Below, piece after piece: positions 25,910-31,358 of a stretch of DNA of 64,000 nt. The stretch's first letter is position 1. Every line of letters begins with the position of its first letter. The notes under the pieces are model-generated. The model had not been told where the DNA came from, made no database searches, and was given only the letters and a program-made list of their open reading frames with translations. The stretch is from Cognatishimia maritima (GTDB lineage: Bacteria > Pseudomonadota > Alphaproteobacteria > Rhodobacterales > Rhodobacteraceae), in assembly GCF_900129685.1 (NCBI RefSeq), contig NZ_FQWM01000004.1, forward strand, positions 126,501-190,500, written 5' to 3'. Made by a program: the position numbers and the translations under genes.

Positions 25910-25940
25910 TGTGATCACAGGCAAAAAATGTGTGATCACA
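25910..25940. promoter_or_regulatory. Twin operator TGTGATCACA x2 upstream of sucC
   Basis: Two identical perfect palindromes at 25910-25919 and 25931-25940. Their starts are 21 bp apart, two helical turns, so two dimers would bind on one face. With the promoter proposed for sucC, the centres fall near -61 and -82, an activator-like position. The same pair with the same spacing occurs upstream of sdhC. The binding protein is unknown. Confidence 0.75.
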
Positions 25941-26017
25941 AATTCTGAGATACGGGTGAATATCCCGATTCGAAATGCAAAATTAGCAAAAAATGAGAAT
26001 GCGTTTGAATTCGATCC

Positions 26018-26048
26018 AAAAAGGCGCGGCAGGTTACCGCGCCTTTTT
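26018..26048 (-). terminator. Terminator after mdh
   Basis: A perfect 12-bp stem (AAAAAGGCGCGG and its complement) around CAGGTTA, ten bases after the mdh stop. It ends in T5 on either strand and separates mdh from sucC transcription. Confidence 0.9.
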
Positions 26049-26058
26049 GATAAAAAGC

Positions 26059-27021
26059 TTAGGCCAGAGAGCTGTCGATGCCTTTGCAGGCGTCAACCAG
26101 ACCTTTGACCGCATTCACAGAGGTGTCGAACATTTTCTGTTCCTCTGCGTTCAGCTTGATGTCGACGATGCGCTCAACGCCGTCTTTGCCGATCACAGTT
26201 GGAACACCAACGTACATGCCGTTTAGACCCAAGGCACCATCCACATAAGCCGCACATGGCAGAACGCGTTTCTGGTCTTTCAGGTAGGCCTCGGCCATCT
26301 CGATCGCTGAGGTCGCTGGTGCGTAGTAGGCAGAGCCGGTTTTCAGCAGGCCAACAATTTCCGCGCCGCCGTCACGGGTGCGCTGAACAATACCGTCCAG
26401 TTTCTCTTGTGTGGTCCAGCCCATCTCTACCAGATCTGGCAGAGGGATGCCCGCAACTGTGGAGTAACGCACAGACGGCACCATGGTGTCGCCGTGGCCG
26501 CCCAGAACGAAGGCTGTGACGTCGCGCATGGAAACATTGAATTCTTCTGCAAGGAAGTGACGGAAACGCGCAGAGTCCAGAACACCTGCCATGCCGCAGA
26601 CTTTATTGTGCGGCAGGCCAGAGAATTCACGCAGCGCCCAAACCATCGCGTCCAGCGGGTTGGTGATGCAGATCACGAACGCATCCGGCGCGTTGTCGCG
26701 GATGCCTTCACCCACGGATTTCATTACTTTCAGGTTGATGCCCAGTAGGTCATCACGGGACATGCCAGGCTTACGTGGCACACCTGCGGTCACGATCACA
26801 ACGTCTGCGCCAGCGATATCTGCATAGTCAGTTGCGCCAGACATGTCTGCGTCAAACCCTTCAGAAGGGCCGGACTGAGCGATATCCAGTGCCTTACCCT
26901 GAGGAATGCCGTCTGCGATGTCGAACAGAACAACGTCGCCCAGTTCCTTGATTGCTGCCAGGTGCGCGAGGGTGCCACCGATCTGACCTGCGCCGATAAG
27001 GGCGATCTTGGGTCGTGCCAT
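26059..27021 (-). CDS. mdh: Malate dehydrogenase (NAD)
   Basis: A 320-residue LDH-like malate dehydrogenase. It has the nucleotide-binding [13 protein letters not shown] (residues 10-22), the substrate loop [13 protein letters not shown] with two arginines, and the catalytic His in GGHGDTMVP. It oxidises malate to oxaloacetate in the TCA cycle and also receives malate formed by the ethylmalonyl-CoA pathway. It is transcribed toward sucC but is cut off from it by a strong terminator. It is divergent from a TauE-like gene over 168 bp. Confidence 0.96.
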
Positions 27022-27189
27022 TGGGAAATCTCCAATCCGGTTGAAATTTGCGCTTGTGGGTAAGGCTTAAATGTCCCTCGTGCAAGTCCTTTGCCGCAGT
27101 GCAGCCTGTCGCATACGCGTTGAGGGGCGGCGGGAATCGCGTATATATCGGCCTTACAGGACGATTTAGCGCTAACGGATCGCCGCAGG

Positions 27190-27927
27190 ATGGATGGGTA
27201 TTTTTTTGCAGTTGCGGCATTGGCAGTGATCTTTGCGGGCATTGCCAAGGGCGGATTTGGGGGCGGCCCGGCCTTTGCGTCCTCGGCGATTCTTGCCCTC
27301 GTGACCACTCCGGCGCAGGCCATAGGGCTGATGTTGCCACTGCTGATCCTGATGGACATCGGGACATTGCGCCCCTTCTGGAAGCAGTGGGATTGGCCGC
27401 GGGCACGTGTTGTCACATTCGGGGCCATTCCGGGGATCGCGCTCGGGGCCGTGTTCTATAGCGTCACCAATGACGACATGCTGCGCCTGTTGATTGGTCT
27501 TGTCGCGCTTGGATTTGTTCTCTGGCAGTTGATCCCAAAGAGCCGCATGAAAGACGCCAACTTTTCCCCCATAGTCGGTTGGATTGCTGGAATTGTTGCG
27601 GGGTTCACCAGCTTTGCCAGCCACGCAGGTGGCCCCCCGGCAGCGATGTATTTCCTATCGCAGCGTTTGGATAAAACGACTTATCACGCCTCTATGGTGT
27701 TTGTCTTTTGCGTGGTCAACGCAGCGAAAGTGATCCCCTATGCCTATCTCGGTATTTTCACAGCAGAGACTCTTTGGGCAGGTGTTCTGCTGTCTCCGCT
27801 TGCATTGCTGGGCGTGTGGCTTGGGGTGAGAGCGCATTCGATGGCGCCAGAAAGTATTTTCTTTGCAATGACTTATGCCCTTCTCGGCATCATTGGCGTT
27901 AAACTCGTCTATGAGGCACTGATCTAG
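27190..27927 (+). CDS. TauE/SafE-family membrane permease
   Basis: A 245-residue membrane protein with about eight helices. It has the TauE/SafE hallmarks: GIAKGGFGGG in the first helix and GFTSFASHAGGPPAAMYFL in the middle. Family members export sulfite, sulfoacetate or other organic anions; the substrate here cannot be read from sequence. The Shine-Dalgarno is poor (GCAGG directly before the ATG). It is divergent from mdh. Confidence 0.85.
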   Translation: MDGYFFAVAALAVIFAGIAKGGFGGGPAFASSAILALVTTPAQAIGLMLPLLILMDIGTLRPFWKQWDWPRARVVTFGAIPGIALGAVFYSVTNDDMLRLLIGLVALGFVLWQLIPKSRMKDANFSPIVGWIAGIVAGFTSFASHAGGPPAAMYFLSQRLDKTTYHASMVFVFCVVNAAKVIPYAYLGIFTAETLWAGVLLSPLALLGVWLGVRAHSMAPESIFFAMTYALLGIIGVKLVYEALI

Positions 27928-29991: not shown

Positions 29992-29995
29992 ACAC

Positions 29996-30199
29996 GTGAA
30001 ACTGTACCGACTGCTGACCGAGGATGACACATCGGCGTTCTGTCATAAGGTGACGGATGCTTTGAACAAAGGCTGGGCGTTGCACGGCGACCCAAGCTAT
30101 GCGTTTGACGCCACCAAAGGCGTCATGCGTTGCGCACAGGCCGTCGTGAAAGAGGTCGAAGGCACCTACACGCCAGACATCAAACTAGGAGCACAATAG
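29996..30199 (+). CDS. DUF1737 protein
   Basis: A 67-residue protein starting at GTG with GGAGG eight bases upstream. The pattern KLYRLLTEDDTSAFCHKVT, then LNKGWALHGDPSYAFD matches DUF1737, small proteins that recur beside mesaconyl-CoA hydratase-type genes. It lies two bases before the mch start, so the three genes are clearly co-transcribed. Function unknown. Confidence 0.82.
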   Translation: MKLYRLLTEDDTSAFCHKVTDALNKGWALHGDPSYAFDATKGVMRCAQAVVKEVEGTYTPDIKLGAQ

Positions 30200-30201
30200 C
30201 C

Positions 30202-31233
30202 ATGGCAAAGACCAACGCGGGCCGTTTCTTCGAAGACTACCATGTCGGCGACGTGATCAAACACGCCGTGCCACGCACCGTTTCTGGGGGTGAGCGCGCG
30301 CTGTATCACGCACTCTACCCGGCGCGGCATGCGCTGTATTCTTCTGACGAATTCGCCCGTGCCTCTGGTCTGCCTAAAGCGCCGCTGGATGATCTGGCGG
30401 CGTTCCATGTGGTCTTTGGCAAAACCGTGCCGGATGTGTCGCTGAACGCGGTCGCCAACCTTGGTTATGCCGAGGGGCGCTGGCTGAAGCCGGTTTACGA
30501 AGGCGACACCCTGCGCTCAGAATCCGAGGTGATCGGGGTTAAACAGAACTCCAACGGCAAATCCGGTGTTGTCTACGTACGCACCCGTGGCCTGAACCAA
30601 AACGGCGACGTGGTGATGGAATATGTCCGCTGGGTGATGGTCCGCAAACGCGACCTCGATGCGCTCGCGCCGGAAACCGTGATCCCAGACCTGAACAAGG
30701 TCATCCCAGCCGATCAACTGGTCATTCCTGAGGGGCTTGATTTCACCAACTATGATTTCGAACTGGCAGGAGAGCCTCACCGCTGGGGGGATTATGAAGT
30801 CGGCGAGGTCATCGACCACGTTGATGGTGTGACGATCGAAGAAGCCGAGCACATGATTGCGACGCGGCTTTGGCAGAACACGGCCAAGGTGCATTTTGAC
30901 AATACCGCCCGTCCAGACGGCACACGGCTGATCTATGGCGGCCACGTCATTTCAATGGCGCGCACGCTGTCCTTCAATGGTTTGGCAAATGCGCAGATGA
31001 TCGTTGGTCTAAATGGTGGTGCCCACGCGAACCCGTGTTTGTCTGGCGATACCATTCGCGCCTGGACCGAGGTCTTGGACAAAGCGGAAACCAGCGCACC
31101 AGGTGTCGGCGCGATCCGTTTGCGGCTTGTAGCGACCAAAGGCGGCGCGCCTTTCGAGCTGAAGGGCGAGGACGGAAAGTACCTGCCTGATGTGCTCTTA
31201 GACCTAGATTACTGGGCCTTGATGCCGCTTTAG
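30202..31233 (+). CDS. mch: Mesaconyl-C1-CoA hydratase (beta-methylmalyl-CoA dehydratase)
   Basis: A 343-residue protein with two MaoC-like hot-dog halves (roughly residues 10-160 and 180-340). It hydrates mesaconyl-C1-CoA to beta-methylmalyl-CoA in the ethylmalonyl-CoA pathway. The N-terminal segment GRFFEDYHVGDVIKHAVPRT and the ERALYHALYPARHALYSS block are typical of Mch. The ATG at 30202 has AGGAG eleven bases upstream, and the gene immediately follows DUF1737. The sdh operon begins 250 bp downstream. Confidence 0.92.
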   Translation: MAKTNAGRFFEDYHVGDVIKHAVPRTVSGGERALYHALYPARHALYSSDEFARASGLPKAPLDDLAAFHVVFGKTVPDVSLNAVANLGYAEGRWLKPVYEGDTLRSESEVIGVKQNSNGKSGVVYVRTRGLNQNGDVVMEYVRWVMVRKRDLDALAPETVIPDLNKVIPADQLVIPEGLDFTNYDFELAGEPHRWGDYEVGEVIDHVDGVTIEEAEHMIATRLWQNTAKVHFDNTARPDGTRLIYGGHVISMARTLSFNGLANAQMIVGLNGGAHANPCLSGDTIRAWTEVLDKAETSAPGVGAIRLRLVATKGGAPFELKGEDGKYLPDVLLDLDYWALMPL

Positions 31234-31327
31234 GCATCTCGCACCAAAAACGACTCATTACTTGGTTGCAGCTTTGCGATCACAGGGCGCGCTATCTTGC
31301 AAAGAATATGGACGCAATCTTCAAGTA

Positions 31328-31358
31328 TGTGATCACAGTAAATATTCCTGTGATCACA
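31328..31358. promoter_or_regulatory. Twin operator TGTGATCACA x2 upstream of sdhC
   Basis: Perfect palindromes at 31328-31337 and 31349-31358, again with starts 21 bp apart as at sucC. A third, one-mismatch copy (TGCGATCACA) is at 31275-31284, 53 bp before the first, about five helical turns. All lie in the 251-bp gap between mch and sdhC. A shared unknown regulator for sdh and suc is the simplest reading. Confidence 0.75.

Follow-up and report, generated by a model that had tools for sequence, protein, structure and literature searches.

Paired palindromes upstream of sucC and sdhC in Cognatishimia maritima as probable operators of the GntR-family regulator AkgR

RSP_0981 of Rhodobacter sphaeroides is said to be the AkgR of Imam et al. 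2015 and reportedly activates TCA genes. The AkgR regulon comes closest to the locus described here, with the same core motif GTGATCAC, the targets sucCD, odh and sdh, and a GntR-family protein as regulator. The available text of PMC6365646, which cites Imam et al. 2015, gives GTGATCAC as one of the sequences bound by AkgR and calls AkgR a transcriptional activator; the accessible part of PMC4344238 gives control of sucCD, odh and sdh by the GntR-family protein RSP_0981 as a prediction. The same GTGATCAC is found before the gene of PS417_07240, a GntR-like regulator of deoxyribonate catabolism in Pseudomonas simiae with a reported identity of 32% to AkgR, but this protein serves another pathway and has one site, between -47 and -40 relative to the start codon (PMC6365646, as far as its available text goes). 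Central carbon metabolism of R. sphaeroides is also the subject of CceR (RSP_1663), a LacI-family protein predicted to control sdh and mdh, whose motif GTT-N6-8-AAC differs from the palindrome of the present study (PMC4344238, accessible part).

In the stretch of C. maritima DNA analysed here (64,000 nucleotides of contig C13, referred to as a whole as the window), the operons suc-odh-lpd and sdh are each preceded by two perfect copies of the 10-bp palindrome TGTGATCACA. The two pairs, with their identical distance from start to start, are present as given in a preliminary description of this DNA. The features concerned are:

24620..25813, minus strand: sucC, first gene of suc-odh-lpd (Pfam ATP-grasp_2 and Ligase_CoA); the pair ends 96 bp before its start
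25910..25919, no strand: predicted sucC-proximal operator, AkgR-type, perfect TGTGATCACA
25931..25940, no strand: predicted sucC-distal operator, AkgR-type, perfect TGTGATCACA, 21 bp start to start
31275..31284, no strand: one-mismatch copy of the palindrome, probably outside the system (conservation 1/57)
31328..31337, no strand: predicted sdhC-distal operator, AkgR-type, perfect TGTGATCACA
31349..31358, no strand: predicted sdhC-proximal operator, AkgR-type, perfect TGTGATCACA, 21 bp start to start
31485..31868, plus strand: sdhC, first gene of the sdh operon (Pfam Sdh_cyt); the pair ends 126 bp before its start

Perfect copies of TGTGATCACA are rare, with six in the genome of 3,280,811 bases (3.28 Mb) and none of the reversed control sequence. 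The fifth copy lies on the same contig outside the window, just 5' of a GntR/FCD gene (C13:18882-18891), and the sixth, at C10:93695, within an open coding frame. If one mismatch is tolerated, the window holds six matches compared to a mean of 1.87 in shuffled sequences, and six were reached in 1 of 100 shuffles; the second one-mismatch copy, at 33039, is located within sdhA. The whole genome contains 139 sites with at most one mismatch versus 12 for the control, so that single imperfect copies mean little, and GTGATCAC is found 117 times. The informative unit is the pair and not the single copy. The one-mismatch copy at 31275, given in the preliminary description beside the pairs, exists, but as a part of the system it could not be upheld, as a site with at most one mismatch occurs at the same offset in 1 of 57 sdhC promoters, that of the window itself. 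Further targets with imperfect sites may exist in this genome beyond those found. A scan of 25500-31700 against Rfam gave no match at the gathering score.

The GntR/FCD gene behind the fifth copy (C13:18903-19547, L064), whose product contains GntR and FCD domains, is the likely akgR. We take its product as the AkgR of C. maritima because the targets of RSP_0981 are the very operons marked here; on the basis of motif, targets and family it is likely an orthologue of RSP_0981. The GTGATCAC palindrome stands at the targets, these targets are sucCD, odh and sdh, and a GntR-family gene co-occurs with the sites in the same genome, with one exception among the genomes compared (G023, see below). In location the two species differ, with akgR about 133 kb from sucC in C. 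maritima and, judging from the RSP numbering, close to sdh in R. sphaeroides. The named relatives closest to the C13 protein among the best 80 loci are roseobacters (Cognatishimia, 84% identity), and no named R. sphaeroides locus is among the best 80 matches listed. Its best match among solved structures is the distant GntR/FCD protein McbR of E. coli (PDB 4p9f, E 2.6e-20). In the FCD domain of the C13 protein, by eye, an aspartate presumably takes the position where FCD proteins usually have the third metal-binding histidine. The regulon of McbR differs from that of AkgR.

The genome contains 27 matches to the GntR domain (PF00392), none of them within the window's stretch of C13, and no GntR protein is among the ten window proteins scanned with Pfam. 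A window gene 3' of sdh was considered as regulator and rejected, the 234-aa frame at 37125 being a phosphorylase-family protein. The operator had been presented as that of an unknown regulator; this was rejected, since both the motif and its regulator have been published for R. sphaeroides (AkgR, RSP_0981; PMC6365646 and PMC4344238, in the parts available). Of the regulator families guessed at the time, GntR is the one to which AkgR belongs; nothing speaks for LacI or ScfR.

The proposed search for paired sites in relatives was carried out on 292 genomes of the same order, all of one family by their taxonomic codes, and a perfect pair was detected in 201 of them when a gap of 0-30 bp was allowed. 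Among 75 pairs listed from this survey, 71 have their two sites separated by 11 bp and 4 by 10 bp; the spacing is thus kept in relatives, at 21 bp and in a few at 20 bp from start to start. The survey left 91 genomes in which no perfect pair was seen, and 80 of these were searched again over their entire length with up to three mismatches and a fixed gap of 11 bp; 76 contained a pair and the control gave 0, and since the gap was fixed, these loci are uninformative on spacing. The reversed-control pair had no match in any genome of the 292-genome survey and the 80-genome recheck. As to position, 29 of 30 pair loci lie upstream of sucC or sdhC, in agreement with the original claim that the sites precede two TCA operons. 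The exception is L047, where the pair is located beyond mdh and no sucC match is found. For the rechecked genomes, the position before sucC or sdhC was confirmed for those loci that belong to the promoter set described below.

In two genomes (G210 and G063) a third pair is found before an lpd gene that adjoins akgR and is 75% identical to the lpd of the window:

L266:1828-1858 and L268:1790-1820: third pair in G210 and G063, before lpd beside akgR

This pair is about 0.85 Mb away from the suc pair in G210 and on another contig in G063. In four other genomes the suc operon ends with lpd, and akgR lies next to it. By the logic of a regulon, an lpd outside the operon would be expected to have a pair of its own.

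The akgR gene itself is associated with a single site. Of 30 unnamed orthologue loci, 29 carry GTGATCAC shortly ahead of akgR (the exception is L074), as do all 80 loci of named relatives, 74 of which have the perfect 10-mer; TTGAC is often seen by eye shortly 5' of it. The position next to the start of the gene would fit autorepression. Among seven loci with GntR homologues outside the family, L331 has GTGATCAC in a near upstream position; in L333 it is found both 375 bp upstream and downstream of the gene, and the other five have none. In two family members (G110 and G227; loci L234 and L235), an AkgR-like GntR gene with 49% identity is preceded by TGTGATCACA, although neither sucC nor sdhC has retained its pair.

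Judging from these sequence comparisons, we consider it very probable that the pairs are operators of the GntR/FCD regulator AkgR, which would raise transcription of suc-odh-lpd and sdh through contact with the polymerase, and that the single copy would limit akgR. One AkgR dimer would occupy each 10-bp palindrome, so that the two dimers of a pair would lie two turns apart on one face of the DNA; the placement on one helical face had been proposed before and is supported by the kept distance of 21 bp. From the pair, AkgR would reach RNA polymerase bound at a -35-like element that starts, in the case of sdhC, about 46-79 bp after the pair, and this contact would raise transcription of both operons. 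At akgR, the single palindrome would let AkgR limit its own synthesis. The corresponding elements in the window are:

25845..25850, minus strand: tentative -10-like element of sucC, TATACC; weak, by eye, also seen at this offset in G138 (L181), the genus mate
25869..25874, minus strand: tentative -35-like element of sucC, TTAGTT; weak, by eye
31427..31432, plus strand: -35-like element of sdhC, GTGACA, 68 bp after the pair and 99 bp from the pair start (row L251)
31449..31454, plus strand: tentative -10-like element of sdhC, TAGTAA, 16 bp after GTGACA, by eye

A set of 138 different promoters (81 sucC, 57 sdhC) was compared, of which 132 have an 11-bp spacer and 6 a 10-bp spacer, most rechecked loci having been found at 11 bp by design. 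An unguided Gibbs search of the sequence downstream of the pair, run on 56 sdhC promoters that did not include the window's, ranked CGTGAC first, and we regard the -35-like element as a probable true promoter element. Measured from the pair start, CGTGAC falls into four distance classes one helical turn apart in 56 of 57 sdhC promoters: 77-79 bp (12 promoters), 87-89 bp (35), 99-100 bp (7, including the window) and 109-110 bp (2). None of the 57 lies between the classes, and L255 is the only one without CGTGAC. The pattern used for class assignment also accepted ATGAC; with the stricter GTGAC[AT], 53 sdhC promoters (the window left out) gave the same classes. For L212 and L258 the first match (57) was used and a second match at 80 ignored. 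The concentration of phases peaks near 11 bp, with R being 0.94 at 11, 0.93 at 10.5 and 0.65 at 9.

On a quick tree of short SdhC-SdhD-SdhA pieces, in which 16 of 54 inner branches are open, the distance class changed at least 11 times, and the well-supported branches alone force at least five changes for the class one turn longer. The step from 68 bp after the pair in the window to 79 bp in G138 may not be a single event because the tree parts the two; a cleaner step within a genus is that from G044 to G021, which share a 10-bp spacer and have the element at 59 and 70 bp behind the pair, respectively. The sdhCDA pieces of G138 (L182) group with another genus, away from those of the window, which represents either a transfer or a tree error. 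For sucC, the Gibbs search found a weaker motif at 44-46 in 59 of 81 promoters, at 34-35 in 14 and elsewhere in 8; it was used instead of a simple sigma-70 scan, which had produced scattered offsets. A perfect inverted repeat CTTAGTTTT/AAAACTAAG at 25853-25875 overlaps the tentative sucC promoter and is absent in G138 (L181).

Steps of whole turns are expected if AkgR must face the polymerase, and they fit an activator of this kind. We favour, with moderate confidence, the view that at sdh the AkgR pair acts from far upstream and was shifted in evolution by whole turns only, the activator having to face RNA polymerase with its two dimers as one unit; a similar pattern of two classes, separated by one turn, is seen at sucC. 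Phasing alone does not separate activation from repression, and it could serve the bridging of DNA as well. AkgR bound to the pairs might mainly repress suc and sdh, for example by bridging or bending through two dimers, until a TCA metabolite releases it. Repressors are common among GntR/FCD proteins, and the single site next to the start of akgR has a position typical of repression. Nevertheless, the pairs at sdhC are located well upstream of the -35-like element and not over it, and AkgR is called a transcriptional activator in the available text of PMC6365646; we therefore regard repression as improbable.

A regulator other than AkgR, either CRP/FNR-like or a GntR paralogue, might read the palindromes at suc and sdh while AkgR binds the copy at its own gene alone. 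The 27 GntR-domain matches in the genome offer candidates for this. The distribution of the regulator gene, whose co-occurrence with the sites had been suggested as a check, argues for AkgR. In 287 of the 292 genomes the best match has an E under 1e-70 and counts as a close AkgR; the others are G023, G110, G141, G227 and G232. The last four show no pair, including at sucC and sdhC themselves. G023 is a counter-example, and one in favour of another regulator, as it has one-mismatch pairs at both operons and a best AkgR match of only 1e-13; an assembly gap is possibly behind the missing akgR. Altogether, of the 281 genomes examined, all 276 that encode a close AkgR have the pair, versus 1 of the other 5 (Fisher p 2e-8, uncorrected for kinship). 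In a class-wide draw of 190 genomes, the pair was found in five, three of them family members. Outside the family it adjoins the gene of a GntR homologue with 36% identity in G402 and lies about 2.5 kb from one with 30% identity in G305; beyond the three family members, no AkgR match in the draw was better than 1e-41, and the reversed-control pair matched one genome (G364).

CRP-type operators consist of TGTGA and TCACA with a 6-bp spacer. The palindrome has no such central spacer, which speaks against a CRP-like reader and agrees with the earlier statement that it is not a CRP site. In addition, the published motif belongs to AkgR (PMC6365646, available text), and a second reader is accordingly very improbable. 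Several findings do count against the AkgR reading, namely G110 and G227, where the palindrome persists at the GntR gene but no pair stands at sucC or sdhC, the missing akgR site in L074, the missing CGTGAC in L255, and the 8 of 81 sucC promoters off the main offsets. Chance or a general effect of GATC context, for which the commonness of one-mismatch copies and of GTGATCAC might be quoted, is already refuted by conservation and can practically be dismissed given six perfect copies versus none in the control, no paired copies in the controls of both family surveys, and 29 of 30 pair loci before sucC or sdhC.

A sequence that fits the CceR motif, GTTTGCGCAAAC, is found at 31371-31382, 12 bp after the sdhC pair (motif from the accessible part of PMC4344238). 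As a conserved site beside the pair it was rejected: the strict form occurs in 1 of 57 sdhC promoters (shuffled mean 0.79) and 3 of 80 sucC promoters, and the loose form in 7 of 57 and 7 of 80, compared to means of 1.82 and 2.61 and maxima of 8 and 6 in plain letter shuffles, the sucC row of the window being left out. GTT-N6-8-AAC is thus not a conserved element of these promoters. Near sdh, the window encodes an HpcH/HpaI lyase resembling malyl-CoA lyase (28549-29403), a mesaconyl-CoA hydratase (30130-31233), a methylmalonyl-CoA-mutase-like protein (38718-40685) and a zinc-type dehydrogenase that resembles crotonyl-CoA carboxylase/reductase (41001-42362). These genes around sdh (28549-42362) may be parts of the ethylmalonyl-CoA pathway. 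Two genes lie between sdhA and sdhB (34087-35933), one without a Pfam match and one for a polysaccharide pyruvyl transferase.

AkgR, its motif and its targets are known already. As far as our literature searches show, the present analysis adds the family-wide pair with its nearly fixed spacing, the site at akgR, the phase locking, and four genomes that lack regulator and pairs alike, although part of this may already be contained in Imam et al. 2015. The 21-bp pair, the akgR-proximal site and the phase lock do not appear in the available parts of the AkgR accounts PMC4344238 and PMC6365646, nor do these novelties in those of PMC11323563, PMC4419725 and PMC7471390; a literature search for the 10-mer returned nothing on this operator at the level of titles and the beginnings of abstracts.

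In summary, the regulon is known and its architecture is informative. A likely regulator can now be named for a seemingly orphan operator, and the AkgR regulon is extended across a family common in the sea. The comparison also shows an lpd gene that has its own pair away from the suc operon, and four genomes in which regulator and operator pairs are absent together. The promoters of this family also provide a comparative data set on how far away, and on which face of the DNA, an activator must stand.
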